Assembly (NCBI GenBank): GCA_037176885.1
Contig: JAWWNJ010000170.1
Location: 124,001 to 188,000, forward strand
Direction: 5' to 3'
DNA from: Favolaschia claudopus
Lineage: Eukaryota; Basidiomycota; Agaricomycetes; Agaricales; Mycenaceae
DNA: 64,000 nucleotides
A program made the position numbers and the translations under genes. Below the pieces are notes generated by a model, which was not told the origin of the DNA, ran no database searches, and was given only the letters and a program-made list of their open reading frames with translations. Positions within the stretch are counted from its first letter, which is position 1. Every line of letters begins with the position of its first letter. Positions 37,861-57,180 of this stretch are shown here, one piece after another.

Positions 37861-38069
37861 ATGATGAAGCGCGTTGGGAAGAACAAAGCCAAGAAGACTT
37901 CAAAACACCTCAATGCCACTCTTCAAGATGGCTATGAAATAACTTATCACTCAGGTATGAGTCAATTCGATTCCGAAATTTGTATGCTAAGTTATACCCA
38001 GGCCCTTCTCCGCGAAAAGAACGCCACATTGTCGACGACCCGTTGGAACCAACACAGGGACCCAGTACA
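37861..38069 (+). pseudogene. 5' part of KDZ transposase gene, interrupted by the CACTA element
   Basis: Exons 37861-37954 and 38002-38069 read MMKRVGKNKAKKTSKHL... and GPSPRKERHIVDDPLE..., ending in phase at the ACA (Thr) codon that is duplicated by the insertion. Without the insert the frame runs straight on at 57181. Confidence 0.8.
38067..38069. repeat. 3-bp target-site duplication (ACA), left copy
   Basis: ACA directly precedes CACACCGG at 38070; the partner ACA is at 57178-57180, directly after CCGGTGTG. Confidence 0.8.
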
Positions 38070-38626
38070 CACACCGGAAAAAACAAAATTTTAATATAGT
38101 CAAAAACGCCCCTCAAATGGGCTCAATTTAGTATAGGATTTGTAACGAGAGTAAAGGAAAACATTTATATTGTACCAAAAGACACCCGAAATTGTAAGGA
38201 TTTGGTATACATAATAGAGCAAAGGCAATGGAGGCCATTTAAGTGACGCCAAAAGCTGCGTGAAAAGGGAAGGATTTGGAGGCAGTTTTAGACAGCCTCA
38301 AAGGAGCCCATTGAGCCATTGCCAAAAGGTGTCCCAAATTGGCGAAATTTGGGGTCGCTTTTAGGCAAAGCACAAAGGAGCCCTTTTAGCGCGTCTGAAA
38401 GCAACCCCAAATGCTTGGCATTTGGAACGCCTTTCAGACGCTCTAAAAGGCCAGCATTTAGGAAACGCCAAAAGGCGTCCCAAATGGGCACCATTTGGTT
38501 CCCGTTTTAGGTAAGCCCAAAAGTGGCCCATTTTATTTTTCTAAATGTTTGTCTAAATGGAGCCCTTTTAGGCATACCCCAGGGTACACCCTGAGGTGCA
38601 CCTCGGGGTACTACCCGCGGGTGCAC
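38070..38626 (+). repeat. Left 557-bp terminal inverted repeat of the CACTA element
   Basis: It starts CACACCGGAAAAA and ends GCGGGTGCAC. It is an inverted near-identical copy of 56621-57177, with only a few substitutions seen, for example near the outer end and around 38138. The interior is built from many short words such as CCAAATGGG, CCATTTGG and AAAAGG in both directions, the kind of subterminal repeats bound by CACTA proteins. ORFs inside it are by-products. Confidence 0.88.
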
Positions 38627-39192
38627 ATCGTACTCTCAGCAGGTCGTATAGAGAAACTGGGTTTATTGATTCAAGTAATCTACGTTGGTGTACGCTGTTG
38701 CCATCGGGTGTTTCTACGAGGGAGGGGAGGGGTCTGTTGCACCCTCCCATGGTTGGGATACTCAAGCACACCTTGTAAAAAAGGAGGGCGATGAGATTAG
38801 CGTCTAGGGAGTGGGCGAAAGAGCGCATGCGTACCAGGTTCCGATATCGGGTGGACAACATTGTGAAGCACCAGGTGCCGCGGTATATCTCACCTGCAGT
38901 ATGAGATCGTGAGTGTCGATGAGCGAGAACGGGAGTCCGAGTTGGGCTCGAAGCAGAGTGCAGGTGACAAACGCAGGGGGGAAGACTACAACACGATTAA
39001 CGAATACTAAGATCCGACGAAATACACTTACATTTACAAGACGCGAGGTGAGCGCTCCCGCCTCATTCGATGTCCGTCTGCGAATCGAAGTCGCGCTTCT
39101 CGCGTCCTTTCCCGCACCAGCCTTTGCGCTCTTAGACCCGGCCAGCGGAAGGTCGCCACCAACAGCAACTTGATTGTACGACTTGACAGCTA
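38627..39192. other. CACTA interior left of the nested Tc1 element, no gene recognised
   Basis: Only ORFs below 100 codons without recognisable domains. Confidence 0.45.
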
Positions 39193-39382
39193 TCTACAAA
39201 ACTCTGGAGCGTTCCGAAAAAAAGTTCCCGCTGATGAAGTGACGTCAGTTACCATATAAGGCAGGCACTGCCCTCCAATGCCGCCAACCGACGGCTGGCG
39301 CGTCAGAGCGGGGCGTCCTCATGTTGCAGCCTACGCGCAGCGTAATTGGAGTATTCGATGACGGTGTATCATAATCGAGGTG

Positions 39383-39390
39383 TATAAAAA
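39383..39390 (+). promoter_or_regulatory. TATA box of the passenger gene
   Basis: TATAAAAA lies 36 nt upstream of the ATG at 39426. Confidence 0.5.
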
Positions 39391-39425
39391 CAACGGATAA
39401 TTCATGGAGCCTCGTATTTACAAAG

Positions 39426-40884
39426 ATGAATCCTCAAAATCCACAACGCTATGCAACAACTCAGTATCTCCTTGGAATGGGTCCGATGCCTCCTCCGACG
39501 AACACAGAGCTTGCTGTTGCCCAACTTCAACACAGAATGGACCAGGGTGCTTTTGCTAACATGGGGTACATGGCACCCGGGCCGGGCTACGCACCGCCTC
39601 AGTACATCTCCCAGCCTCGAGACCCCATTCCAAGCTCTCAGCCCCCGAGTCTTCGTGAGTCCTTGGAGCATAATTACCTTGAGAATACCATTGAATTGTT
39701 TCAGAGCTGGATGTCCATGTCCCGGAGCCTGCAGTACAGGAAACAGCTACGACTCAGGCTACCGCTGTTCCACCTACCGTCCTCGAGATTTCCATTGACA
39801 ATATTGCGCCCGAGGATTTTCTTGCCCGCATCTGTGCGCGAATGGAGATTCCCGATGGTGATGCCCAACTGGGATGGAAGTCGAGCGATGATTTGAAACG
39901 GGACCTTCCCAAACGGCTGAGCACTGAAGACGATGTCAAAGCTGCGTTTGACTACTTCCGCCCAATTCTTTTGAGCAAGCGTCGCCAGAAGAAAATTTTC
40001 ATGGAGATCATTAATCTGGTGAGTCCGTTGCTGTCCGTGTTGAGCTGCCAATTAATCTGATTTATACATTCCAAGGCCAAACCAGCCGAGAAAACAGCCG
40101 CGGCGCCCAAGGTCACTGAAACCGCCTACCGTGATGAACTCAACATCGTAAAGGCTGCGTTGGCGTGCGAGAAACACCGCGGCCACAATCGGTGGTGTTA
40201 TGTGAGGAGGGATAATGAGAAGGGAGAGCGATGTGTCCCGCTGGGCTTAGAGGAGGTTACACTTTGGGCACGGAAATTGGTACGTTGCGCGCGCTATCAT
40301 ATACATCCCGAAATCAATTCTGATAATTGACTCTTGCCCAGCACGAAGATAAAGCCAAGCCGGAGAACGAACGCGAACTAGATGACAAGTGTACCAAGTA
40401 CCCCGATGTTTTTAAACTCGACGACATGGAGAAGGTTGCAGCCGAGCGCGAGGAGCGTAGCAAAAATCGTAAGAAAGGCAATGCTGCCCCCGAATTCCAT
40501 CTTCACATGCCGGCGTCCATGGCCGGGATCTTTGGTGACGTCAGCAATGCACAACCGGCTCCGAAACGCGCTCGCGACACCGAGGACTCGGACAACGACT
40601 CAGACGATGACGCACCTGCTGTCTCTATTTCCGACGTTCTCAATGTTTTGCACAAGAAGATGCCGGACCTCAATTATCCTCAATATGAGGCGGCACTTCG
40701 TGGGCAGGGCATCGCGTACGCAAATGCTGTCAGTGGGTTCGATCGGGACTTTTATTTCAAGGAGATTGGGATGGTGAAAGGTGTCGTGCAGGAGTTTATA
40801 AAGGTTGCTAAAAAGGTCGCAAAGGGGAAGGGCAAGAAAAGGGCGCGCGTAGAGAGCGAACACGACAAGGAGAATCAAATGTAA
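39426..40884 (+). CDS. Passenger gene of the Tc1-type element, unknown function, 429 aa
   Basis: Four exons (39426-39654, 39705-40018, 40076-40279, 40342-40884) splice in phase with no internal stop. The N-terminus is Pro/Gln-rich. A middle region contains WKSSDDLKRDLPKRLS and a Cys/His cluster, CEKHRGHNRWCYV, that could bind metal. The C-terminal third is acidic, then basic (KKVAKGKGKKRARVE). The C..H....CYV cluster recalls a widely expanded Agaricomycete family of unknown function. Predicted nuclear. It converges on the transposase gene with 55 bp between stop codons, and lies well inside the 35-bp repeats, so it travels with the element. A DNA-binding helper role is possible but unproven. 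Confidence 0.85.
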
Positions 40885-40939
40885 ATACTATAATGTCCAC
40901 GAAAACAAATCTAATGTACAAATACAAGAAACTATATGC

Positions 40940-42136
40940 CTAGTCGACTAAATACCCACAGTCGCGATACCACGACTCGATATTCTCGGGTGTCATTGTC
41001 GAGAAAACAGCCTCCCACAGCATCTTGATTGGGTCGCACGTTGGTTCGTTTGACATTTCCCCCAAGACGTAGTCGCGGTTACGCCGAATCCACGCCTTCA
41101 TCGCCGAGAACCCCTCTTCGATGGGATTGAAGTCGGGGGAATATGCGGGAAGGTATACCAAGCGCATACCGCTATACAAGATTAGCTATGAATCTATTCC
41201 GGGATGAAAGCCACGCACCGAGCTTCGATCTGCTCCCGAATACCCTCATAATGGTGGGTGCTTGCATTGTCCATGACGATGACGGAGTTGTCTTGCGGGT
41301 AGGGATTCATATTGTCTAGAAGTGCGTCGATGTAGACCCTGAATTCTTCCCCCGTCCATGACCGGGTGAGAATATCAAGGTGAAGAATACCGTCGAGCGA
41401 GATGGCAGGAAGAATAGAGTATCTCGATGACTCGTCAACATAGGAGCACTGTGGAAGTGATAACGACGTACCTGATTCCCCTCACAAAGTAATCGTGCCT
41501 GCGGGCTCTGTCCCCAATACGTGCCCAACCCATCTGCCGTTTGGTGGTGTGCCTATTAGCAGCGGACTCGTCAAGGAAGACGAGCGTGCGAGGTGGGTAA
41601 AGCTCCCCAATGACCATCTGATAGTCGGTCCTAGTGTCTTCATTTGCTTCCAGCGCTGGCCGGGTCACCTGTGCAACATTGAGTAATATATCCCTCCTCC
41701 TCCGAGTCTTTCGTGAGCACGTACCTTTTTTCGGGACCAGCCACGACGCCCAAGCGCTCGTGCGATTGTATTGGAGCATGCCTCAACGCCCCGTGCATCG
41801 AAAAGGCATTGAGAGAGCTCGGAGAGGTAGATGTCAGGTTGACGCTCAATGAGGGCCTCGAGATACTGCAGCGATATAAAAGTCAAACAATGAGATGCAG
41901 AAAAAATCATAAATTACCTCGAGATCAAGGGAGTTGAGGATGGAGGGGCGGCCATTGGTTTCTGGCTGCGCAACGACGTAGCCGGTGGTGTGCCAGAGGC
42001 GCCTGACTTTCCGGACAGTGCTCTCGCCGACATTGATAGCAGCAGCAATTTCCTTAGTAGACATCCCATTGGCGGCCATAGTAATCATGAGCCTCTTGTG
42101 GGCTGGGGGAATATACCGGAAGGCGTTGTAGGGCAT
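40940..42136 (-). CDS. Tc1-type DDE transposase, intact, 330 aa
   Basis: Five exons (42136-41918, 41865-41725, 41668-41472, 41422-41219, 41171-40940) join in phase to 330 aa. An N-terminal helix-turn-helix (MSTKEIAAAINVGESTVRKV) recognises DNA ends. The catalytic triad is D in LVFLDES, D in VIVMDNAS and E in SPDFNPIEEGF, with 34 residues between the second D and the E, the Tc1 DD34E spacing. It cuts and pastes the element at TA sites. The length is normal for Tc1 transposases, and all exons and catalytic residues are present, so it may be active. Its promoter would lie in the 100 bp between 42136 and the right inverted repeat. Confidence 0.92.
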
Positions 42137-42273
42137 GGTAGTAGGTGAGAGAGAGGTTCCATAGCGGTGATGAGAGTCGTTGGAGAGAGTGGAGCTGGCA
42201 GGCCAAAATAGGCAGGAGCTGTCAAAAACAGGGTGTGAACTTTTTTTCGGAACGCTCCAGAGTTTTGTAGATA

Positions 42274-43780
42274 GCTGGAATTTCCAGCACCAGTCGACTT
42301 GTCCTGGATGCGTGCATGTGAGAAGGTTAGGCATTTCCTGTACTTGCATATCAGCTTCGGGGAAGGATGAGCAAAGAGCCGATGTACTTGAATTGTGTCC
42401 GCTGAATATGTGCATTGAAAACACATTTTTGCACCGACTCATCAGCTCTTTGCATGTCTTCATGTGCAGATACCGCGTGAACTGCTCCTCCTCTTCGCGC
42501 GACCTACCCTCCGCTTTCTTCGGGTGATCCGAGACCTTCTTGTGTCCCTCCATCCCACTCGCGTTGAGGACGCTCCGTCTCAGCGTTGTAGTACGCTTCA
42601 CGAGCGACGTAAGCGCCGAGACATTCCTCGTCGAGATTAAGCGTCGGGACTGAGCGAAACGAGCGTGTCGACGGCCTTTTGACATATACGATTTTAGCGC
42701 CATCGAATTGGGCGGTGATCATGCGCGTGGTGGCGGCGGTGATGGGGTGGGAGAAGGCGGAGGCCTTGCGACAGTGGGTGTTATACTCGGGTATGAACGA
42801 ATTCAAAAAAGAAACACCTCGTGCCTTCAGCGAAGGAAGGGAAGGAGAAGCTCGTACATAGCAAGAGGGCAGATTTACGCCATCGTATCGGACGAGAGTG
42901 AAGGTGTGGTTGGCCCTATACCGCCATTAGCAAAGTACTAACCTGCGACCAAAGAGAGCGTACATATCCAGGTTGATGTGCACGTTGTGTAGAGACCGGA
43001 GAACGGCGTGAGGCTTTTGCTCGTCAACGACTTGGCAATGTCAGGTTGCACCTGAGCAACTGAGCAATCGTCTCGTTGGAGTGAAGTCGGGGCCGCGGTC
43101 GTGGGAGTCGGCGACTGTGGCCTTGTAAGCTTAGGGCTGACGGCGGGATTCGCGGAAACGACCCGGGCAGGCTACGCTAGAAAACCGTCAGGAAAGATGT
43201 AACGGGGATAGCAAAGCGGGACGGACGTATTGGGGCTGGTGTCTCCGACGTTTGCCTGCACAAGCCTGCGAACAAGGTCTGGTTTCCGGAGATGCTGAAT
43301 TCGGAACATACATTTCCTCTTGTGAACCCTTCAGCTTTCTACGAAAGGAGTGAGCAATGCTTTCATGGGTGAATAGGGATAAGAATGGAAAAGAAAGGTT
43401 GACGGATGCGCATGAGTGGACGTCTTAAGCATCAAGTGTGCCACGAGATTCGCGACACATAACTGGATTCGAGACGCCGCCCATATGAGAGCTGTTATCG
43501 CTTCAATATCGGGAACTTCACTACCTGCGGGTCGATCGCTCTGGGCCGGACTACGAGATCGAGTCGTGGACCAGCATATACAGAGATTGGTTCTGCGATG
43601 ATCGATATACGGAGAAACGAATCGCAACGACTCGAGCGACACTGCGTAGAAACGCCGTCGACATGGGAAGACTCGCCATTGGAACGTTGTAGGGAAAGAT
43701 GAGCCAAGCCTCACATCGCGAGATTCGGGAAATATGGAAAGAGCCGTTTGACTTGAGGGTAGCTTACCTTCGACCCTGTT
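42274..43780. other. CACTA interior, no gene recognised
   Basis: Minus-strand ORFs of 210 codons (43331-43963) and 100 codons (42504-42806) show no domain or convincing splicing. They may be decayed cargo. Confidence 0.4.
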
Positions 43781-44179
43781 TGATGTCCATCTTACCCTCC
43801 CTCTCTGTCCTCCTGACCTACTCAACCATCCCGACGACGCTTCGATACCAGCACGTTCAAGCCATCGACAAGCGGAGGGAAGTTGCAGAAGCCAGAACGA
43901 GTGTGATCGATGTGTTGGTGAGAGATAAACAAGCCGCGGTGTCGACGTTTGTTTGCACACCACTGCGCACCATCGGTGTAGACATAGCTACCTCTTCATC
44001 AGCATTCCGCCCGCAACAAGCCTCCGCACGCCGAATTATATTGCCTAACATTGTCTGGACATCCAGCTGTTCGCGGATTCGAGTTTGCCGTAGCTCCCGT
44101 CCTCTTCGACATTTCTATCTTTCAAGTCCAATTGTCGGACCCGGTGCGTAGACGGGTGTGCGTCTCGTCAACCGCGATC

Positions 44180-44890
44180 ATGGTGGGTAGCTCAAAGAAA
44201 ACCGTGAAACGCACGCCCTCGCAAGAACGTGCCTTCCGAAAAATGTGATTTTTTCTTCGTATAACATAAGCCCAAATTCATGGCTACAGCCGTCAGTTGC
44301 CGCCTCTGGAGCAGAAAGCGGCACTCATTGAGCACGCCGACGATCTCCCGTATTTGCGAGAATGTGACGGCTACATCTATCTGACGGCTCAACTCCCGGA
44401 AGACGTCGTACGCGGTCAACAGCCGAAGGAAATAGAGGCCGAGCTCATGGTAAAATGGGGCGAGACTCGCCGGCTCACAGGAAGGCAGGAAGACTACCGT
44501 CGCTGTGAGGCTGGGCGGACGCAGATGTGGATTGAAGCCGTCCACGTCGAGAGGCGTTCGCTGATTGGTGAGTGTGTATGCAGAATGCCGCGAATGTGAA
44601 CTGAGAAAAATTCGGTACAGAACGGCTCATTCATCTCGAGTTGGCAGCTAGAGGGTATAGGCGGGTCATATTCGTAAACCCATGCGGGTGCGGGCATCGG
44701 CATCGCGAGTACGTCTACATGGGCGGGAGATCTCTCGCAGACATTGAGAGCATTATGCGTGGATGCCTTAAGGAGGCGGGCGAATCGAACGCACAAATGT
44801 GAGTGGGTGGGGGAGATTTCGGTGTGACAGCATTTCTATAGCAAAACTTTGCGCCCCCGCCGACGAGGGGCTGCGTATGCTCGAAGATGA
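44180..44890 (+). CDS. GIY-YIG (T5orf172-like) endonuclease, copy A, 189 aa
   Basis: Four exons (44180-44244, 44290-44567, 44621-44798, 44842-44890) splice in phase. The GIY-YIG fold is shown by GYIYL (first strand), VKWGETRRLTGRQEDYRRC (the YIG-like strand with the conserved Arg), ERLIHLEL (catalytic Glu context) and CGCGHRHREYV. The tail KTLRPRRRGAAYARR is basic. T5orf172/Mug113-type domains are single GIY-YIG nuclease modules. The copy at 54121-54842 has the same exon lengths (65, 278, 178, 49 nt) despite clear sequence divergence, which argues for selection on the protein. The start was chosen because both copies share ATGGTGGGTAGC. About 400 bp upstream is also homologous between copies, so an upstream exon cannot be excluded. 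Confidence 0.85.
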
Positions 44891-45585
44891 TGTTGTTGTC
44901 GGATAGCTAGAAGCTTTGGGATGACCTGGTTTCAGGTCGAATGTATATAGGTAAATTGAATTCTGTACATGGGCGTCGGGTGTTGTTCAATGAGGATATA
45001 CTCTTGGTATTGCATTTCCGGTGCCACAACGTGATGTATAGACCTAAATTCCCCTACATGACGTGGGTTCTCAATGAGCGAGCACATTTCAAGTCATAAT
45101 ACTCAAACCCACCTATCCTCAATTCCCGCCGATAACGGTAGGATCTTGTACTTTCGGTGCGTCGGTGCCAATATGGCGCTGCCAATATCTCATTGTCAAT
45201 ACAAGAAAATTGCTTGGGAGGACAAAGGTCACCTGCGCTCGCAAGGTACCCGCACCGCCAAAAATTGATTGAACTTCAAGGCAGCGAGGGAGGGGACTTC
45301 CACAGCACTTATTCAACTCCTCCTGGAGTGGCTTGAGATCAACTCTAAGGGAGATTGAGAACGAGCTGGAAGAATGTCGGCGGTGGCTGTGCTGACCTTA
45401 TTGGGGAGGAGGGTCAGACAAATCGTGGAGAAGACGGGGGCACTACTTCTGGCTATCATACGAGCTAAGTATGCGAGTTCTGTAGAAAGATTGCAGTGAG
45501 GGTGGGTAGGTAGATCACAAAGGAAAGCAAACCTCGGTATGAGCGAGTCCAAAAACTTCCCAACGAGTGACCGCATTCTGACGGG
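44891..45585. repeat. Duplicated 3' flank of nuclease copy A with antisense gene remnants
   Basis: This segment is homologous to about 45790-46440 (direct) and, inverted, to about 53500-54110. On the minus strand splice sites line up between the copies, but stops break each one. It looks like the 3' part of a convergent partner gene that was copied together with the nuclease gene. Confidence 0.45.
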
Positions 45586-45787
45586 CATCGGCACCAATAG
45601 TATGTATATGTGGAAGCAGGATCTCTCGCCAACATGAAGAGCATCATGCGCGGCTGCTTGAAGGAAATGGGGATCAAAATGTATCAATGTGAAGCAAATG
45701 CGGAGTAATTACTCTGAACTTCTGTTTCGAATAGCAGTGCTTTACGCCTCCGCCGACGAGAGGCCCGATGTGCTCGAAAATGATGTT
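45586..45787 (+). pseudogene. GIY-YIG nuclease copy B, truncated
   Basis: Only the second half of exon 3 (about 45590-45680) and exon 4 (about 45739-45787, basic tail with RLRRREARCARK) remain. The first two exons with the GIY and YIG strands are missing, so it cannot be functional. Confidence 0.65.
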
Positions 45788-45959
45788 GCTGTCGGATAGC
45801 CAGAAGTTTTTGGCATGATCTGGTTTCAGGTCGAATATATATAATATGAGTGAATCGAATTCTATATCAAGCCCTCGGGCACTATTCAGATGCTGAATAA
45901 ACTGTTGATATTGCATTTGTGGTGCCACGAGACATGATTTCTAGACATGGATACTCCTA

Positions 45960-46769
45960 CATATACCTGTTTCTCAATGAGCGAGGTCGTTCTATTCGAA
46001 GATACGCAAACTCACCTATTCTCTCAATTACCGCCAAAGGCGGAGCAGGGGATTGACTATGTAAACGTGGAAGCTCGTCACTGCCAATATCAGACTGTCA
46101 ATCCAAGAGAGATTTGCTTGGTGAGGGTACGAAGGTCACCTGAGCTCGCAAGGTACCCGCACCACCAAAAATGGACGGGAATTCAAGGCAGCGCTGGAGG
46201 GAGCTCCCACAGCACTTATTCAACTCCTTCTGAAGTGGCTAGGAATCAACTCTAAAGGAGATTGAGAACGAGCTCGAGTATATCGGCGGTGGCTGTGCTA
46301 ACCTTGTCAGTGAGGACGGCTGGACCAATCATTGAGAAGGGATGCGCTAGTTCTAGCTGTGGTACAGCGAATGCATATAGCCTTTATAAGTTGATTGAGG
46401 ATGAACAGTTAAATTAGGGAGACGAAAACAAACCTCGGTGTGAGCGAATCTTGAAACTTCTCGGTGAGTGGCCGCATTTCCGGGAGTTGACCACCAGACT
46501 GACAAGAAACAAGCAGCTCGGGAATCTGAATTATTCATTGATGAACATGAAAATCAAAAGAGGACGAGAGACAGGAACAAACCTCAAAAATCAGCGCAAG
46601 GAGGTCATTGATATGAGGGTGACTTTCAGTAGCTAAGTCAGACCCGTCTAGTAGTCCGAAAATTCACGTAGGCACTGTGTTGTGCGGATTGAATGCAGGA
46701 GCAAGGCTAGGAAGACTGAAACGAACCTTCAGAGAATGCGGCGGCACCCGAGTTTTGGTGGAACGACAT
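45960..46769 (-). pseudogene. Convergent partner gene of the nuclease module, copy B, unknown function
   Basis: From a minus-strand ATG at 46769 (MSFHQNSGAAAFSE) four exons join in phase through about 50-nt introns: ...DGSDLATESHPHINDLLALIFE, IPELLVSCQSGGQLPEMRPL, LYAFAVPQLELAHPF. The frame then hits a stop near 46250. The inverted copy at 53140-53640 has the same exon borders but lacks the ATG and has a stop. The style (short, Leu-rich segments) could suit an F-box/LRR-like protein, but no domain is certain. It is head-to-head with the WD40 gene at 46872, about 100 bp apart. Confidence 0.35.
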
Positions 46770-46871
46770 ATTGCTTCATTATGAGTGAAGCGCATTGGCG
46801 AGTGGTAGTCCGGCGAATCGAGACACTATTGAGATTTGAATGAGGCCTCACGGAGGCGGATATGGCAAGAA

Positions 46872-48215
46872 ATGCCAGGAAACCAGGCGATTTACACCAG
46901 GCAGCTTCACTCAGGCTTGATCCTCGTGCTCGCTGTGACGGAAGACGGCAAAACCCTTGCGACGGGAGGTAGGCGCTTCGAAGCAAGAGGTCAGATGTAC
47001 CCTGACCCGTCACAGGCTCGCAGGGTACCCGGCTCTTTGACACCAAAACCATGAAGGAGCTAAAGCGTCCTGCCGGCGCTGGCACTCGCGGCCATACCAG
47101 CTCCCTGCACTGGGCACGTCAGACCGATGAGCCGCACGACGTGTTGTACTTTGGAACTCAGAGCGGAACATGGGCTTGTTGGCGCCGAGGAGACGACGGC
47201 TTTGAGGAAACCTTCTCCAAACAAATCACGACCTCAGGCGAGATTACGGGCTTGTCTTTCGACCCCAGCAAGAACATACTCTGTATTTGCAGTCGGTCGG
47301 ATATCGTCCAAGCGTTGAAGATTTTGAAGAATAGCGTTAACGGCAAATGGAGCGCATCTAGTATTTTCAGCAACGAAATAGCTGGCCTCGCTCCCCGAGC
47401 AATCACGTTCGCCGGGTTCGATAGCAGCGGTGACCGCGATATTGTGGCCTTTGGTTCGGGCCACAACGGACCAGTGTGAGTCACAACTTCGTCGCATGCT
47501 GAATCTGCTCTGAATTTCGGTAAAGCGCGACTTTGTCGGGGAGCACAGGTAAATGGAAGGGGGATTGGATGGCGGGTGGATAGATGTAAGGTGCACTGTC
47601 CATACTAGCGAAACTCTGCTGACACTGAGTTCGCAGTAGCTCTGCCGACGTTGACTGGAAAGAGGGGGTTCTCTGCCTGAACGACCCCTACTTTGGTCCG
47701 GGACTCTTCCGTTTGGCAGACGAAGCCAAGGCCCGTTCATTTGAGGTGCCTACGGAGACCGAGGGTGAGCCCTACACGACCGATGCGTGCTTTGGTGAGA
47801 AGGGTCGGTTGATCGTCGCTGGGAGCGACCACGGGATTGTGTATGTTTTCGATGCTCGTTCCGGAGAAACCATTCAGAAGCTGGACACTAAGAAGTCGAA
47901 GTGGGTGAAAGCCGTCACGGTATGTATGGCTCTTATTGACAGTCGCCCCGAGCTAACCAAGAAATGCCACAGATGGCGGAAGTTGCGGGGGTCCCTACAA
48001 TTTTCGCGGCGCACACGTATAGGGACGAAGGATACCAGGATATATTCGTATGGAAGAGAGCTCAATCATTGCTTATAGGATGGTATCAAGTGGAAATTTT
48101 CCTGAAGACCCTCGTAGTCTTGGGGTGCGTTGCATTCATTTACCAGAATCTGGTATCGGCGGGGATGATACAGAAAATCGTGTTTAAATTGCCGCGGGCG
48201 ATCTATGGAAAATAA
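46872..48215 (+). CDS. WD40-repeat protein with C-terminal membrane anchor, 360 aa
   Basis: Four exons (46872-46968, 47016-47475, 47637-47919, 47973-48215) splice in phase. WD40-like blades: SGLILVLAVTEDGKTLATGG...TRLFDTKT, SLHWARQTDEPHDVLYFGTQSG, ITGLSFDPSKNILCICSRSD, DRDIVAFGSGHNG, and LIVAGSDHGIVYVFDARSGE. The C-terminus has one hydrophobic helix (LKTLVVLGCVAFIYQNLV) followed by a short basic tail, predicting a tail-anchored membrane protein with the propeller in the cytosol. It belongs to a multi-copy Agaricomycete WD40 family of unknown role. Inside the CACTA element it lies between the nuclease module and the transposase, both genes being co-directional. The start of this gene (MP.NQAIYTR) is also found inverted at about 53020-53055 as a fragment. 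Confidence 0.85.
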
Positions 48216-48489
48216 TACCGTCAATAGACGAAGTGATGTGGTAGAATTTGTACTTACACCGAATGCTTTTTGCTTGAACAACATCCCATTAAGACTCTTG
48301 GATAATTGTCCAACGACTTGCATTAGAGAGGTGACGAAAATTTTCAGTGGTTCCGAGGTACGCCTCCGACGATATACAGCAGAGGGAATACGGAGAAAGT
48401 ATGCGGTCTGGCCGCGTCTTGAGGGCAGAGGAGTGAGGACGTTGAGCCCATGCAGGGACTCGCCCAGATGAATGAGTCCTCATATGCGT

Positions 48490-48872
48490 CTGGCGATCTA
48501 CACCAGACGGGATGAGGACTTGGGGAGGAGAGATGGAGGTGTCACGCTGTCACGTGTGAATGATGGCGGCTGTGTCACGGAGGTCAGCTATCTAATCACC
48601 CTCTCCACCCTCTCCCACTTTGTGTAGATCGCAGAGTGTTTGCAGAGCGTGTCGCTTCCGCTAATTCGCTGGTTTCGGTGGGACCTGCAATAGTTTGTAG
48701 GGTATCCCAGACCGGGTCATCTTATCACCCTCTCCAAGACCCTACCTCCCCGCTTTGTGTAAATCACAGAGTATTTTATTTACAAGTTGTGTTGATGTTC
48801 GCTGGGACCGCTTTAGGTAAATCCTAGAGTGCCCTGGCTCGTCAACGCCGCTTTGTGTAGATCGTAGAGCGC
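48490..48872 (+). promoter_or_regulatory. Repeated GTGTAGATC motif in front of the transposase gene
   Basis: CTTTGTGTAGATCGCAGAG-like words occur near 48618, 48753, 48811 and 48851, all within 270 bp of the transposase ATG and several preceded by CACCCTCTCC. The related GCGATCTACACCAG occurs at 48493. More copies lie at 46887, 52881 and 53025. A transposase-binding or promoter role is inference. Confidence 0.45.
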
Positions 48873-48881
48873 GTGACGGCA

Positions 48882-51800
48882 ATGGCGCCTCAAGCAAAGT
48901 ACTTCGATTGCAATTGCGCGTTCGAGGAAACAACCCATCGAATCAGGAGCGATCTCAGAGACGTGCATAGAGAGGATCTGAGACGCAAGCTCGAACGCGA
49001 ACGGGAGCTTGAGAATCTCCTCGTTCGAGAGACTACCAGCGCTGTCATCGTTGGCGATGCTTCCGCGGCCTCCAACCCCGAAACTCCTGTAGACGCAGGT
49101 GAAGTCATGACGGAGACCATGCGGGTTCTGTCATATCTCATTTCCCGACGCACCGACGTCAAACAGCCTTGGCGGCAGGGTCAAAAAGATTCCTTGCTGA
49201 AGTTCATCCTGCGAGATATCGAGGCAGCCATGTCCTCCGTTCTGGCCGCGATGACAGGGGGACCAGTGGAACTTCAATTGCAGATTTGCAACGAGGCGTC
49301 GGCCGCTGCCTCAACTGCAGCCGAATCATTAAAACCGTTCAGCGACTCTGACGAGAAATCTTTGGTCGTCGCGATTTTGAGGAAGTTGGACGATCTGGTG
49401 AAGGGGCTACGCGCCACGCTTCCACCGGACATGGGGCCGCTCTTCTACGATTCAGGTATGCGCAATCTTTTGCTTTTCCCGCTTGTGTTGACGCTTCTCA
49501 GGCTATCTTGCTCGCAATCCCATTGGCGACCTCTCAGAGCAAGCGCAAATTGTAATCCTACTTGCACTAGTCTGTCATAGCATCCTCAACATGCCGGCGG
49601 ATCATGTAAATCTCATCATCGGCTCCTCTGAACTTCTTGTCAGGTCCACCATGGCGCTGAACCCCGTAAAGAATCCAAAGGGCTCGCTTCAGTTTGATGC
49701 TCTGCAGGAGCATGTTCTGAAGGAACTACCAACCAGCCTTTTTGACGCTATGTCTACCATGAATCTGGACTGTAAAACTACATTGTACGCAACGTGTCCC
49801 TCATGCCATGAACTCTATGCTCCTACCCCCCTTTCTACATCTTCGGATCCTACTTGGCCTGCCCAGTGCAACAATATGATCGTTGGGAAACAGGGTCGGT
49901 CGGTTTGTGGCACACCATTGTTGAAGGAGGGCAAAACCGCGCTGCACCCCATCAAGCCATTCCTTTCGCCTTGCTTCCTCGACTACATCGCTCGTCTTCT
50001 TTCTAATCCAGAAACTGAGAAAATGCTTGATGACGCCTGTGATAAAGCGCTCAATGAAGAGATGAAAGACTATGACTTCGTTGGTGATGTATTTCAGGCT
50101 GAGTTCCTCCGCGAGTTCAAGGATCGCGATGGAATTGAACTCTTCATCAAACGCCCAGGGAAGCGTATGCGCCTGGCTTTTGCCATAAGCTTGGATTTCT
50201 TCCCCCCGTTTGGCAGCAGAAAGCGTTCGAATTCGAATTCAATTGGACTTCTCTACCTATACTGTCTGAATCTTCCTCTCATTTCCGTTCGCCACGCCCC
50301 CCAGAATGTGTATATTTGCATAATTCCAGGGCCCGCGTCACCCCACCTCATTGGAATGAATCCATTTATACGGACCATAATCGAACCGGCCCTGCAGGGA
50401 TGGGAGCGGGGTATACACTTCTCCTCAACTGCCAGCGAACCTACCACTGGTCGTGTCGCAGACCTTGCCATCGTCCTTGCCGTCAATGATTTACCAGCTG
50501 CACGCCAGCTTGCTGGAGCTGCAGCTCACAATGCCAACATTTACTGTACTTGCTGTAATTGTCAAGGTCGGAGTACTGTATACAACACCAATTTCGAAGA
50601 CTGGACGAAACGAGATAAGGACAAGCTCCGGAGCCATGCTGAAGCCTGGCGTGATGCCGATACAACAGGGCAGCAGGCAAAGCTTTTCGAAAAACATGGA
50701 CTTCGCTGGTCAGAAATGTGGAGGCTGCCCTACTGGGATCCGACTCGGTCACTCATCGCGGATCCTATGCATACCATTTATGAACGTTGGGTGCAGTATT
50801 ATTGTCGTGAAGTCCTTGAGATCAATCTTGCCGATGCGGCCAACATAACAAAAACCGCGCCAGCCTATGAATATGACTTTGCCACCCTTGACACTGAAAT
50901 CCCTAAATCTGGAGTGAACGCGAACGAAAAACCATTGAACTCAACGAACGAAAAAGATATTCTCGACATTTATAAGCTTCTTGTCCGTCAATTTCGTGAC
51001 ACCACGTCTGAAAATGTGGACGCCGGCGAGGACTTCGCCATGGATGTCGACGGGGTTGATGAGGATCAAGGTACCTCTAATCGCAAAGCGGGCGGCAAAA
51101 CTGCTACAGACGACTCCTTGACCGCAGAAAAACTGACGAATATGCTCGCGGGAAAGTCTAAACCCGCCCTGCGCTTCGTCTGTTGGACACTGGAGTTGCC
51201 AAAAACCCTACCTTTGGAGCTGCCTGAACGACCAGTACAGTCCAAGGGGAAGAAGGGGAATCCTGCGACGCTCCAGCGTATGCCCACGAAGATCAATAAA
51301 GATTTTGAGTATGACCCAGAAACATGTACAAGGGGAGATTATCTCGACCTGGTTCAGAGAATTCATTTAGCTGAACTCCTCGTGGAGTGGGTAAGTTTTC
51401 AATGAACGAAATAATTTTCCTGGTCTCATCTCAATGTCTAGCGCCTCACGAAGCCTCTTTGTGACCCAGACAAGATCGTGCCGGAAAGAGCCATTGACTT
51501 GGTCAGCTTTCGCTTTATTCAAGAAGTTATTCGCGACACCACGACACCCGCTTGGATCAATCATGTTCCCAAAAATTATGGAGAAAAAGGGGTGGGTTCT
51601 CTCAAGGCGGATGAATGGCGGTTACTCGCCACAATATACCTTGGTATTGCTCTTGTGATTCTATGGGCCGTCAAATCTCAGAAACCCGAACTTCTCGAGC
51701 ATGGTATGGCACTTGTTCAGGCCGCAACTATCATCAGTCGCTTCGGCTCGTCCGACGAACGCTCTGAGACGCTTAGGAATTTCATCAAGACATGGGTCGA

Positions 51801-52585
51801 AAAGCTACACGCATGTCATCCTCATACCTCCTATCACCATAAGAAGACGGCCATACATATGGCCTTCCACATGTATGATTTTCTGCACCTTTGGGGCCCC
51901 GTTCCGGGATGGTGGTGCTTCCCGACCGAACAGCTCATTGGCATTCTGCAAAAAATCAACAGCAACAGCCATGTTGGAGGTGAGTCGCAACCTTTTTCTT
52001 CGAAACGTATACACCCTCTGACCGACCTTGGCTTGTTTCCATCGAACAGGTGAACATGAAATAACTGTCGCCAAGACATGGATGCGCAACGCAAATCTGA
52101 GGCGGTGGTTTGCTCGCAAGGATTGCCCTGAGCTCGTCCGACAGTTTTTCCGCCTGTATACCATGTTCGTTGTCAAGAGGGGTGAATCTCGCAAAGATTT
52201 GGGGTCGGAGCCCTCAGACAGAAAGGAGAAGGCACACCACAATCACGCAGGGATGCACTTTTCCCGGGCGAGCACACACCTTGGGAACAGTCTCGTTTCT
52301 TTCTCAGACGAGGGGAACAACACTGTCTTCGGGAGCATCGTGAAGATACAGGTGTTGGATCCGGCGACAGACCAGGTGCAATTTATCATTGAAACTCAGG
52401 AACCGTTGCCCCCAAACTCTCCTGATCCTTTTCTACCGTTTCCTCATTTCCCGGCTCGCACGTACTCGTCGAGGATGTCTGAGTCGACTGTCGAGGTTGA
52501 CCCTGATAAAGTGATAGGGCACTACGCGCGCTTCAACTTCTCAGGCGAGCGTGCAGCTGTATTGGATTTATCTAGGGTATGTTGA
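48882..52585 (+). CDS. tnp2-family (CACTA/EnSpm) transposase, about 1179 aa
   Basis: Exons 48882-49455, 49502-51390, 51442-51979 and 52050-52585 join in phase (an alternative last exon ends at 52631). After a coiled basic N-terminal region and a Cys-rich zinc-finger-like segment (CPSCHEL...QCNN...VCGTPL), the tnp2 core appears: RMRLAFAISLDFFPPFGS, then CLNLPLISVRH, then ICIIPGPASPHLIGMN, then VNDLPAARQLAGAA and a C-rich CTCCNCQGR. SLIADPMHTIYERWVQYYCRE follows. These match the order in plant CACTA TNP2/Transposase_21 proteins. Late motifs HKKTAIHMAFHMYDFLHLWGPVPGWWCFPTEQLIG resemble the domain that follows tnp2 in fungal relatives. It cuts at the CACACCGG ends. No internal stop or frameshift was found. 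Four promoter repeats precede it. Confidence 0.88.
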
Positions 52586-52631
52586 TATTCTTTCTAATGT
52601 ATCTACTCGTACTGACAACCCGAAGTTTTGA

Positions 52632-54110
52632 GGCAGTGAGTAGGATTGCGGCAGACGAATCATTTGAGGGGAGAGCTAGTGCGGTGGTGGACGTTATTGA
52701 TGTAATCGTATCCCGTGTATTTTCACAACGTAGTCGTATTCCATGTATTTTACCGTTTGTCTTCTCTCTTATAACATGCAAATTATACCGACTGAATCAT
52801 TTCTTGGGTGACCAAAAACGGCGGGTCAGTCACATGTGACATGGAGTGACAGGGTCAGGGTATTCCTTGACCTCCGCCACCTGGTGTAGATCGCCAGTGT
52901 GCCGGTGGACATCCTCTACGCCCACCAGACGACCATATATAGTCGAGTGTAGAGCGCTCGATGTTTCTGACGGCTTCTCCGCCCTTTGTGCGCCGTCGCA
53001 GAAGGGTACCCGCTCATTGACCCGCCTGGTGTAAATCGCCTGGTTTACTGGCATTTCTTGCCATATCCGCCTCCGTGAGGCCTCATTCAAATTTAAATAG
53101 TGTCGGAATCCGCTGGACTACCACTCGCCAATATGCTTCACTCATAATGAAGCAATATCCCTCCAAATCTCTGTCGCCGAGTCATTCTCTGAAGGTTCGT
53201 TTCGGCCTGCCTGGTCATGCGCATACTCTCATTCCGTACAATACAGTGCCTACGTGAATTTCCGAACTACTAGACGGGTCCGACTCGGCTGCTGAAAGTC
53301 ACTATCATATCAATGACCGCCTTGCGCTGATTTTTGAGGTTTGTTCCTGCTTCTCCTCCTCTTTTCCTTCTCATGTTCACTAATGCATACTCTAGATTCT
53401 CCAGCTGCTTGTTTCTTGTCAGTGTGGTTGTCAACCCCCTCGAAACGCGGCCACTCACTGAGAAGATTTAGATTCGCTCGCAGCAAGGTTTGTTTTCGCC
53501 TTTCTGAGCTAAGTATTTACTCTCATGTTTTCACAGAATTTATATACTTCGCCCGTACAACATCCGAAACCCAAGGTTTTTCTTCTTGACATTTTCTCTG
53601 ACCCTCCTTGCGGAGAAGGTAAGCACAGCCACCACTGACACATTTGAGTTCGTTCTCAATCTCCTTTAAAGATGATTCTAAGCCACTCTAGGAGGAGCTG
53701 AGTCAGTGCTATGGGATCTCTCTCCCGCGCTGCCTTGAATTCCCGTCCATTTTTGGTGGTGCGGGTACCTTGCGAGCTCAGGTGACCTTCATACCCTCCT
53801 CAAGCAAGTTTCTCCTGAACTGACAATGAGTTGTTGGCAGCGGTGCACTGTAATGTATAAGACCCTTTTGTATCTGCGGGAATCCAGAGAATAGGTGGGT
53901 TTCAGTTTCTTGAATTGAAATGCACTCGCTCATTGAGATATAGTATATATAGGGGGGATCCATGTACAGAAACCATACATTGCGGCACAATAAATGCGAT
54001 ATCAACAGTTTACTCGCTATCTGAACAGTGCTCGAAGGCTCAATACAAAATCCAATTCATTTACATACATTCGACCTGAAACCAAGTCATGCCAAAACTT
54101 CAATCTATCC
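52632..54110 (-). repeat. Inverted right-arm copy of the nuclease-partner module
   Basis: From about 53055 the sequence is an inverted copy of the region right of nuclease copy B: the WD40 start fragment (about 53020-53090), partner gene remnant (about 53140-53640) and the shared flank (about 53640-54110). Between 52632 and 53020 lie short GTGTAGATCGCC repeats and no gene. The partner gene remnant lacks a start and carries a stop. Confidence 0.55.
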
Positions 54111-54120
54111 GATACCAGCA

Positions 54121-54842
54121 TCATTTCCGAGCATATGCGGCTCCTCGTCGGCGGGGGCGTAAAGTTTTGCTACACAAACGCTTGAAATCGCCGTTGAATT
54201 GAATTCTCCGCGATATCACTCACATTTGCGCGTCCGGTTCACCTACCTCCCTCAAGCATTGCCGCATGATATTCTCCATGTCGGACAAAGAACCTTTGCC
54301 CAAGTACACATACTCGCGATGTCGATGCCCGCACCCGCACGGGTCGACGAATTTTACGCGCCTGAACCCTCTGGCCGACAATTCGAGATGGATGACTCGT
54401 TCTGGGCCAAACTTCGTTATTTCACAATTCGCAGTGGGCTGCATATACACTCACCGACCAGCAAACGCCTTTCGACGTGAACGGCTTCGATCCACATCTG
54501 CACCCGTCCCGCCTCACACCGACGATAATCTTCTTGCCTTGCCGTCAGTCGTGTACTTTCACCCCACTTCACTATGAGCTCAGCCTCGATTTCTTTCCAT
54601 CGTTGACCCTGTACCACTCCGTCCGGCAGTTGCGCCGTTAAATAAATGTGGCCGTCACCTTCTCGCAAATACGGGAGGTCGTGTTTGTGTACGATCAGTG
54701 CCCGTCTTTGCTCCGAAGGCGCAAGTCGACGACTGCAAAAGTAAATTCGCGGCCGAAGAACGCGAAGAAAAATTTACATCTGTCGAAAGGCACGTTGTTG
54801 CACCAGCGTACGTTTCGGGGTTTTATTCAAGCTACCCACCAT
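54121..54842 (-). CDS. GIY-YIG (T5orf172-like) endonuclease, copy C, 189 aa
   Basis: Four exons (54842-54778, 54732-54455, 54401-54224, 54169-54121) have the same lengths and phases as copy A. Motifs: GHIYLTAQLP (first strand, Y changed to H at one position), VKWGESTRLTARQEDYRRCE, ERVIHLELSARGFRR, CGCGHRHREYVYLG and tail KTLRPRRRGAAYARK. The product is 189 aa with no stop. It lies inverted to copy A, about 10 kb away, on the other side of the transposase. The G-Y-I-Y to G-H-I-Y change could affect activity: the first Tyr of the GIY strand often takes part in catalysis. Confidence 0.83.
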
Positions 54843-55252
54843 GATCGCGTGCTGTGGACGAATCGCACACCCGCACCGAGTCCGTTAATTGAAAGGAAAG
54901 ACGATGTTAGGGATGTCGACGAGAACGCGATGCTCGGCTGGTCCGAATCCACAAACCGCTGGATACTTCAACGATGCTGAGCAAGAGGATTCCGCAGACG
55001 GAGGTTCGTCGGAGTCGGAATGCGGATGAAGTGTAGTCGCGTCCGTTCCAGCGGTCTGCAGCGATGGGGGCAAACAAACGCCGACACCGAGCTTGTTTTG
55101 ACCACTACATCGATCACACTCGTTCCAGTTTCTGGATCCCTTTTCGGCTTCACGCGCCAATTTCGACGGTGGTACTCGAATGTAGAAATGGTAGAGTGGT
55201 TCAGGAGGACTGAGAGGTGATATAGGCATGCAAGGGGCTCGAGGCAAGCCAT
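54843..55252 (-). repeat. Inverted copy of the upstream flank of nuclease copy A
   Basis: Homologous (inverted) to about 43785-44179, including a TCVID-like open stretch (TSVIDV followed by L or V). It may hold the promoter or an upstream exon of the nuclease genes. Confidence 0.5.
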
Positions 55253-56620
55253 CTTCTTAGTTCATTTTCTTCTCGCCGCCCAAAGAAGAAACGACGAATA
55301 AGGCCGCGAGAATGAGCAGCGCAGCTTGGGAAGATTCGATCCCAGCACGCTCGCCCTCTCCGCCTCCCGCCGCTGCAGCCTGCAGCCCCCACGACGACGT
55401 CATAACCGCGGAGAACTAAACGAGGGGATACAAGGTGCCTTACTGACTACAAAGTCCATCCTCTCCGTCTCACGCTGCGCAGCTTTCTGCACTCAACGAC
55501 CCACACTTACTCCCGCTCGCCGCCCTCCTCGTCACCGCCGCTCCTCGACACCGTGCTTCAAGCTTCATCAAGCTCTTACCGCCCTCTCTGAACGAATCCG
55601 GATGACGTGGCGCTGATATCGCCGTGTCCGCCCCTCATCTCCGCCCTGCTCGTCCACACCGAGCACCAAACACCAGCGCTGGCAAAGCCTCGTACGACCC
55701 GCCTCGCCAATGCCGCGAAAAACAACGAAACGAAGTCACCCTCCCGCCGCTTTCCACTCAAACCTTCAGAAACCCCGCCGCTCGCGCTCGCCAACAGCCG
55801 CACTAGCTCTTTGATCAAACGTGCGTGCTCTTTTCTCCTTCCTTCGCCTCTGGTTCTGACCGCTTTCACCCCAGATTCTGCGTCACACGCCTTCGCGGTA
55901 CCCTCCGCTAACCTTCACTGCACGTCCCGAACGCATCGCCTCCCCACCGCTCCGAACCCGACGCGTCTATATGTATCGTCTATGGCTCCCTCCTCAACGG
56001 CCTCACCACGCTCATGTTCGAAAGCACGCCCGTCTACCCGTCCCTCGCGCGCCCCTGGGAGACAAAGCGCTCACTCCCCCGTAGTACCCGACTCCCGTTT
56101 CCCGATACGGATTCGACATTACCTGTCGTCGCCGGACGCCAAAGGCGATATTCATCAGCGCGGACGCATGCGTGGGGGAGAGGGCGTTGAGGCAGCCGAC
56201 TTTGAGGAGGAAGACGAGCGTCGGATGGCTGGAGAGGAAGTCGAGCGCGGGGACGTTGGGGCTTAGGTGTTGTTTCGGTTCCAGTTCGGCGACCACAATA
56301 TGGTCGGAGGGCTTGGGGCGTCAGATGAGTGGGGGAAGTTAGCAGTTGCGGAGGTCCATTTCAGGGAAGGTCAATCGTCGAGAAGGGTAGTCTTGAAACG
56401 TTTCCGCCGCCGCCTCCGAGTGTGGGCGTGCATGCTCATGCGCCGGATGGGTGGTATAGTAAGTTACTATCTTATTCGCTTGCCTCCACAGCTCACCGCT
56501 CGCAAGGGCTCTCTCATTACAGTAACAGTATTTTCGAAGTAATAGTATTTCTATAGCGATGTAGATCTCAACAACATTATCACGACCTTTCCCGTTTTCA
56601 TTGAGCCGTGAGCAAGGGAG
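55253..56620. other. CACTA interior next to right terminal repeat, no gene recognised
   Basis: A 219-codon plus-strand ORF (55607-56266) is Pro/Ser/Arg-rich at first and Glu/Arg-rich at the end, with no domain. A short ORF at 55316 starts MSSAAWEDSIPARSP and stops after about 35 codons. These look like captured or decayed gene fragments. Confidence 0.4.
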
Positions 56621-57177
56621 GTGCACCCGCGGGTAGTACCCCGAGGTGCACCTCAGGGTGTACCCTGGGGTATGCCTAAAAGGGCTCCATTTAGACAAAC
56701 ATTTAGAAAAATAAAATGGGCCACTTTTGGGCTTACCTAAAACGGGAACCAAATGGTGCCCATTTGGGACGCCTTTTGGCGTTTCCTAAATGCTGGCCTT
56801 TTAGAGCGTCTGAAAGGCGTTCCAAATGCCAAGCATTTGGGGTTGCTTTCAGACGCGCTAAAAGGGCTCCTTTGTGCTTTGCCTAAAAGCGACCCCAAAT
56901 TTCGCCAATTTGGGACACCTTTTGGCAATGGCTCAATGGGCTCCTTTGAGGCTGTCTAAAACTGCCTCCAAATCCTTCCCTTTTCACGCAGCTTTTGGCG
57001 TCACTTAAATGGCCTCCATTGCCTTTGCTCTATTATGTATACCAAATCCTTACAATTTCGGGTGTCTTTTGGTACAATATAAATGTTTTCCTTTACTCTC
57101 GTTACAAATGTTATACTAAATTGAGCCCATTTGAGGGGCGTTTTTGACTATATTAAAATTTTGCTTTTTCCGGTGTG
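56621..57177 (-). repeat. Right 557-bp terminal inverted repeat of the CACTA element
   Basis: Inverted near-identical copy of 38070-38626, ending CCGGTGTG at 57177 and followed by the ACA duplication at 57178-57180. Confidence 0.88.
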
Positions 57178-57180
57178 ACA

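Follow-up and report, generated by a model that had tools for sequence, protein, structure and literature searches.

Our analysis of a 64,000-nucleotide stretch of the genome of the orange pore mushroom Favolaschia claudopus (Mycenaceae), hereafter called the window, revealed one complete transposon of 19,108 bp at positions 38070-57177, which very probably is an internally deleted member of a giant CACTA/EnSpm (DDE) family that has been remodelled by recombination or gap repair. The window is part of contig C170 in an assembly of 264.6 Mb, and its element is the shortest of six copies found in this genome. For strain CIRM-BRFM 2984, the published genome description gives a size of 265 Mb with 86.8% of the BUSCO genes duplicated (PMC10905254), and because of these values we infer that both haplotypes are present in the assembly.

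The termini of the window element read CACACCGG and CCGGTGTG and belong to terminal inverted repeats of 560 nt at 38070-38629 (forward strand) and 56618-57177 (reverse strand), which were delimited by a genome-wide end search and self-comparison. The two repeats are 99% complementary and differ at 3 of 557 positions. Direct reading of the flanks showed the target-site duplication ACA at 38067-38069 on the left and at 57178-57180 on the right, in agreement with the 557-bp repeats and the ACA duplication of the original prediction. The proposed insertion into a KDZ transposase gene was likewise confirmed: the interrupted host gene carries a CxC2 cysteine cluster of KDZ transposases (57351-57995, forward strand; PF18803, E 8.6e-28) as well as the KDZ transposase domain itself (58510-58956, forward strand; PF18758, E 1.1e-16), and two relatives of this gene (C36:1070717-1071186 and C8:264125-264594; 85% identity) run through the insertion site without a break. 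Both are in frame but have one codon more directly beside the insertion point, and are therefore relatives of the target rather than proven alleles. The transposase predicted inside the element is of the tnp2 type (PF02992, E 1.3e-9), with a score of 38 bits where the curated cut-off is 28.6, so that CAC...GTG ends, 3-bp duplications and tnp2, on which the assignment to CACTA/EnSpm had been based, are all found. Sub-terminal repeated motifs are another feature of CACTA/EnSpm elements and may be present here; in the 557-bp end the commonest 7-mer occurs five times, a count reached in 1 of 300 shuffles that kept base composition only.

A search of the genome for other copies bounded by the same repeats yielded 12 full-length occurrences of the 557-bp end. 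These form six inverted pairs, every one of which is flanked by a perfect 3-bp duplication of a different triplet (ACA, TCA, CAA, GCT, CGT and ACT), and this rules out chance or independent small elements as the source of the repeats. All six copies show the CAC...GTG signature (CACACCGG...CCGGTGTG), and the same internal genes lie between the same ends in the five copies outside the window, as expected if the element moves as one unit. Besides C170 (19,108 bp), the copies measure 37,689 bp (C89), 27,942 bp (C16), 27,453 bp (C12), 28,674 bp (C10) and 26,708 bp (C24). In one flank of C89, direct repeats of 488 bp (23641-24128 and 35779-36266 of the oriented element) are 99.8% identical and 12.1 kb apart; this looks like a recent nested element of the long-terminal-repeat type that accounts for much of the 37.7-kb size. 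The insertion junction was inspected base by base for C170, and for the five siblings by searching the genome with the joined flanks. In each of the five, matches cross the join (C16 84-96%, C12 83-94%, C10 89-92%, C89 81-94% and C24 73-77% identity), and stop-to-stop open reading frames (ORFs) of the host extend across the joined sites over 511 (C89), 428 (C16), 534 (C12), 375 (C10) and 154 amino acids (C24), that of C12 with an F-box-like match (PF12937, 2e-6). Since host ORFs read through five joined sites, in addition to the KDZ gene, these six cases, and they are only six, suggest insertion into coding sequence. Within a copy, the left and right ends differ at between 3 (window copy) and 39 (C24) of the 557 positions; in several copies this exceeds the difference between ends of different copies, a pattern in line with exchange between copies. 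Two more distant ends were detected on C15 (77%) and C47 (interrupted). Terminus-like matches of 50 bp with 84% identity at C211:176926-176975 and C183:333491-333540 are possibly ends of another related family.

The five siblings share a core of about 20 kb in which tnp2 and a WD40 gene are read in one direction and two further genes, gene4 and an orphan of about 1,000 amino acids, diverge from them. In C12 the core extends over approximately e3.3-24.9 kb (element coordinates), including inner inverted arms that are about 70-84% alike; their counterparts in the window lie at 43886-46902 and 53024-55134 and are 71.7-77.8% alike by self-comparison. The tnp2 gene of the window (48882-52631, forward strand; 1177 amino acids) comprises five exons at 48882-49455, 49502-51390, 51442-51979, 52050-52576 and 52626-52631, a model built by hand from GT..AG sites. 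It is open over 1,177 amino acids in all six copies, with a synonymous divergence of 0.004-0.030 and ratios of nonsynonymous to synonymous divergence (dN/dS) of 0.27-0.90 across the 15 pairs. Among the genomic matches listed, seven tnp2 relatives reach at least 70% identity, namely the six copies and C47. As the criterion for the catalytic residues we used a DDE triad in which C(2)C and H(3-4)H stand between the second D and the E. In a 15-row alignment D202, C319, C322, M393 and H394 are invariant and D300 nearly so, which leaves the last acidic position and the second of the two H residues unassigned. Directly upstream of the tnp2 start, at 48600-48870, a motif like CTTTGTGTAGATCGCAGAG is seen by eye about four times.

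The WD40 gene adjoins tnp2 and is open without indels over five exons and 384 amino acids in all five siblings. By eye, the C-terminus of its product is a hydrophobic, membrane-anchor-like segment, as it is in two relatives from Mycena. The orphan (e17.5-20.6 kb, on the strand opposite to tnp2) is stop-free in all five siblings and missing from the window copy; a 1-base gap in C16 is located between two matched exon pieces, and differences between copies in the exon are biased towards third codon positions (64/37/122). Gene4 (e14.2-16.7 kb) is stop-free in the frame of C12, its exact model being provisional, and it is supported because it has matches at the diverged loci described below. A fifth, fast-changing gene, gene5, probably though not certainly lies at e11.5-13.8 kb of C12: third-position bias (77/92/180) is seen in the part at e13.3-13.8 kb, which contains stops in three of four other copies.

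The window copy itself is an internally deleted derivative of a larger element. Compared with C24 it lacks e10719-21107, approximately 10.4 kb, and the junction at 46900-46903 shows a 2-bp microhomology (GC). This deletion takes out gene4 and the orphan together with the initial 41 coding bases of the WD40 gene. The remnant of the latter (46901-48215, forward strand) has lost its native start; an unrelated in-frame ATG lies at 46872, and an internal stop appears if the remnant is read with the introns of C24. Thus, whereas several intact non-transposase genes had been expected in the window copy, only tnp2 is intact among the element's own genes tested. A nested multicopy element of about 3.1 kb (39186-42280), identified by genome search and Pfam, contains the ORFs at 39.4 kb and 40.3 kb as well as part of the ORF at 41.8-42.7 kb; it has inverted ends of about 41-44 bp and a helix-turn-helix, transposase-like ORF. 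Other genomic copies of it are 97-99% identical over nearly the full length, and many partial and full relatives exist. The nested element is not part of the CACTA backbone, and cargo genes at 39-42.7 kb are ruled out, as the ORFs there lie in or across it. Between end and core the window copy has its own flanks, in which only short matching pieces were found besides the nested element: 38630-39185 has no other genomic match listed except at the edge of the nested element, and 55200-56617 contains short host-like fragments found by genome search, among them 89 bp at 55975-56063 with 88-90% identity to part of the AMP-binding-enzyme-like DNA of C10 and to its genomic relatives.

Are the additional core genes part of the transposon, or are WD40, gene4 and orphan host cargo that hitch-hikes with tnp2? 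They have no known role in transposition. Moreover, orphan and the scanned exons of gene4 gave no Pfam match at cut-off, and the AlphaFold2 model of the orphan (mean predicted local distance difference test score, pLDDT, 69.8; predicted template modelling score, pTM, 0.51) gave no fold match in PDB at E <=0.001. A reading as cargo is nevertheless rather unlikely in view of the arrangement of these genes elsewhere in the genome. A tnp2 relative lies within 45 kb of 30 of the 43 listed orphan loci, and at 24 of them within 13 kb, where random placement predicts 0.75 and 0.22, respectively. All 30 nearby pairs, five of which are the siblings, are divergently oriented. The tnp2 relatives in this count derive from the best 73 of 223 candidates, with 51 of 75 alignments used after weaker ones and second pieces had been dropped, and the orphan relatives from the best 45 of 303 candidates, with 43 of 106 alignments kept, one per locus. 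Furthermore, at both diverged loci that were read, on C188 (tnp2 44% identical) and at 1.79 Mb of C16 (tnp2 39%), WD40 and gene4 hold their position between tnp2 and orphan in the same order and on the same strands as in the core; a gene5 match was seen at one of the two and is weak (E 0.003). Because the same order is kept at two highly diverged loci, tnp2, WD40, gene4 and orphan are shown to form a backbone rather than random cargo. On C47 tnp2 and orphan are 26.5 kb apart, and a 10-kb stretch there matches C12 only in its first 486 bases.

The diverged C188 element also bears on a rival reading, in which the 557-bp ends would belong to a small outer element and the tnp2 core would be a separate, older transposon nested within it. 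The C188 element spans 165416-194162 (28,747 bp) with ends CACTCGG...CCGAGTG, a terminal repeat of approximately 190 bp (99%) and ATA at both sides; its own CAC-type termini enclose genes in the same order. That the core possesses its own inverted arms and that the DNA between arms and ends varies between copies would fit a nested core, as would a second ORF resembling the tnp2 C-terminus, observed at 20936-21448 of the C12 element in the arm opposite to tnp2. No stop interrupts this stretch in C12, C16, C10 and C24, and in C89 there are two, both close to the 3' end; the arrangement looks as if two related elements had anciently fused. A nested core predicts identical outer DNA in every copy, but this is not seen; each of the six pairs of ends encloses the core or its deleted form, and none of the six near-identical tnp2 genes lies outside them. 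A free-standing nested transposon as core is thus unlikely, and its nesting in a small outer element is in our judgement highly improbable.

Relatives of the core proteins also occur in other fungi. Protein searches, in which the best 7986 (orphan) and 7993 (tnp2) candidates by shared words were scored, gave at least 25 matches for the orphan, in Mycena and a few other basidiomycetes; the WD40 protein had 28 matches, the named ones being from F. claudopus and Mycena. Species and contig size coincide for orphan and WD40 relatives in four cases (M. haematopus, 21,793; M. sanguinolenta, 980,818 and 1,579,475; M. olivaceomarginata, 400,417), for tnp2 and orphan in one (M. venus, 2,074,661) and for tnp2 and WD40 in one (M. 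sanguinolenta, 68,242).

The original prediction had also regarded the internal genes as cargo. Largely, what would count as cargo in the siblings is the gene set that is kept in the same order in diverged relatives, and this part of the claim is wrong or at least incomplete; genuine cargo is instead found next to the ends, as DNA resembling host genes. The flanks between ends and core are approximately 1.2-2.8 kb long, or longer where they contain nested elements (C170 and C89, on one side each). They mostly differ between copies, except for the left flanks of C12 and C16 (99.3% identical); other matches between flanks are a few stretches of 40-235 bp, several of them adjoining the ends. Genome searches covered six of the twelve flanks, namely those on the left of C12 (common to C16), C24 and C10, on the right of C16 and both of the window copy. 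The left flank of C10 (2,263 bp) matches three genomic loci at 82-83% over 2.1-2.2 kb and contains pieces of an AMP-binding enzyme (PF00501, E 7.5e-37 and 2.1e-16). That shared by C12 and C16 contains a WD40 piece (Pfam 2.5e-6), by eye presumably coronin-like, and has a second source on other contigs. The left flank of C24 has two sets of matching loci, and the right flank of C16 matches eight loci at 66-69%. None of the genomic loci matching flanks is listed with an element end in the genome-wide end search. Because of this, together with the gene-like content, we regard the flank DNA as captures rather than shared repeats.

The cores in turn read as recombination mosaics. Along 15 kb the closest relative of C12 shifts, and a Hudson-Kaplan analysis of five copies gave a minimum number of recombination events (Rm) of 28, which may be inflated by repeated mutation or misalignment, with 24,105 of 57,291 pairs of informative sites incompatible. 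While the core genes are mostly 93-100% identical between copies, the arms are about 63-98% identical and the flanks unrelated, and this is hard to account for by point mutation alone. Gap repair or ectopic recombination with template switching presumably lies behind the difference between flanks and core. The left end of the C188 element is 99.7% identical to that of C115 over 6.4 kb and their right sides match at 77-87% in pieces only, a half-and-half likeness of the same kind as in C12 and C16; the right end of C115 was not found within the 10 kb examined. Capture of the flanks through the end of a neighbouring element, rather than by template switching in repair, is a serious rival, to which we give a somewhat less than even chance. 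Such a tandem-array mechanism is the model for Arabidopsis Pack-CACTA in a review (PMC13317346). It would place captured DNA directly inside a complete end, where the flanks indeed lie, and the C15 end without a partner found would suit it as well. On the other hand, the left flanks of C12 and C24 each match two sets of loci on different contigs, which are not easily obtained from one neighbouring segment, and the cores have been recombined multiple times.

Several points weigh against our interpretation of the family as a whole. The assembly is a single draft, seemingly with both haplotypes, in which only reads can exclude wrong joins, and the case is one of sequence comparison, with no transposition, excision footprint or transcript observed. 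No listed tnp2 relative lies inside 45 kb at 13 of the 43 listed orphan loci, and the pairing count depends on the tnp2 relatives listed. One tnp2 pair, with 12 codon differences, has a dN/dS of 0.90, so that the data do not demonstrate recent purifying selection for each pair. The gene4 stretches used have no third-position bias between copies, and some of their indels are not multiples of three; gene5 depends on a third-position bias accompanied by stops in three copies and on the one weak match. A partner for the single C15 end was looked for and none was found. Finally, the identity of flank pieces to those genomic relatives with the best coverage is no more than 66-88%, and therefore the captures are old or the true donors have escaped detection.

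CACTA elements are usually regarded as carrying one or two genes. Our comparison with known systems draws on PMC12730594, PMC12810828, PMC6431247, PMC10853768, PMC8903248 and PMC13317346. By the end and duplication criteria given in PMC12730594, the family resembles CACTA/EnSpm (CMC) in its CAC...GTG ends, 3-bp duplications and tnp2. It differs in that five copies measure 27-38 kb and at least four genes keep a fixed order, and also in its inner inverted arms, its divergent tnp2/orphan layout and the host-gene-like DNA that its ends enclose. In having pieces of host genes between CACTA-type ends, it is reminiscent of Pack-CACTA and other Pack-TYPE elements, which are described as non-autonomous elements of plants (PMC8903248); in contrast, our copies live in a fungus, and the open tnp2 in all six rules out membership. 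CNIRT6 and CNEST of Cryptococcus neoformans are likewise basidiomycete elements of the CMC supergroup and were mobile in the study cited, but what the available text describes for them is a transposase gene and not a multigene core or captured DNA (PMC12810828). Plavaka and TET-carrying EnSpm elements are fungal transposons related to EnSpm, and some of them carry an additional gene (PMC12730594). Plavaka is ruled out by its termini (TGT..ACA or CATCA..TGATG versus CAC...GTG), and no TET/JBP match was obtained in the element ORFs scanned with Pfam. For KDZ we took as criterion the 8-bp duplication given for Zisupton (PMC12730594). Membership in KDZ is excluded by the 3-bp duplication and tnp2, KDZ being the interrupted gene. 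Starships of the Pezizomycotina are giant multigene elements that use a tyrosine recombinase. The present family is similarly giant, multigene, fungal and mobile, but is a tnp2 element with long inverted repeats, its termini and target duplication differ in type, and no tyrosine-recombinase domain was found in the ORFs scanned with Pfam, a subset across copies. Titles and beginnings of abstracts in the open-access literature yielded no description of the six-copy giant CACTA family, Repbase entries and closed papers being outside this scope, and no paper on Mycena transposable elements and CACTA.

In the mechanism which we favour, tnp2 would cut and paste at the terminal repeats with a 3-bp stagger, and the other conserved core proteins would assist or regulate mobilisation. 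Recombination or gap repair between copies would then remodel the elements and would yield mosaic cores, internal deletions such as that of the window copy, and captured stretches of host genes between ends and core. Whether this amounts to a new lineage of giant DDE transposons in mushrooms, in which a divergent apparatus of tnp2, WD40, gene4 and orphan, perhaps with gene5, moves units of approximately 27-38 kb, captures host genes next to its termini and shuffles these among copies, we regard as evenly poised.

Overall, a single fungal family joins an open transposase gene and a conserved multi-gene core with a length of approximately 27-38 kb for five of its copies and with pieces resembling host genes that vary from copy to copy. 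It also holds a warning, as "cargo" seen in one copy may turn out to belong to the conserved backbone, to a nested element or to the scar of a deletion. The family provides a test bed for the movement of big DDE transposons, the roles of helper proteins and the shuffling of host genes in basidiomycetes. If the giant-DDE lineage is real, it would be a basidiomycete counterpart of the ascomycete Starships, built on a different enzyme.

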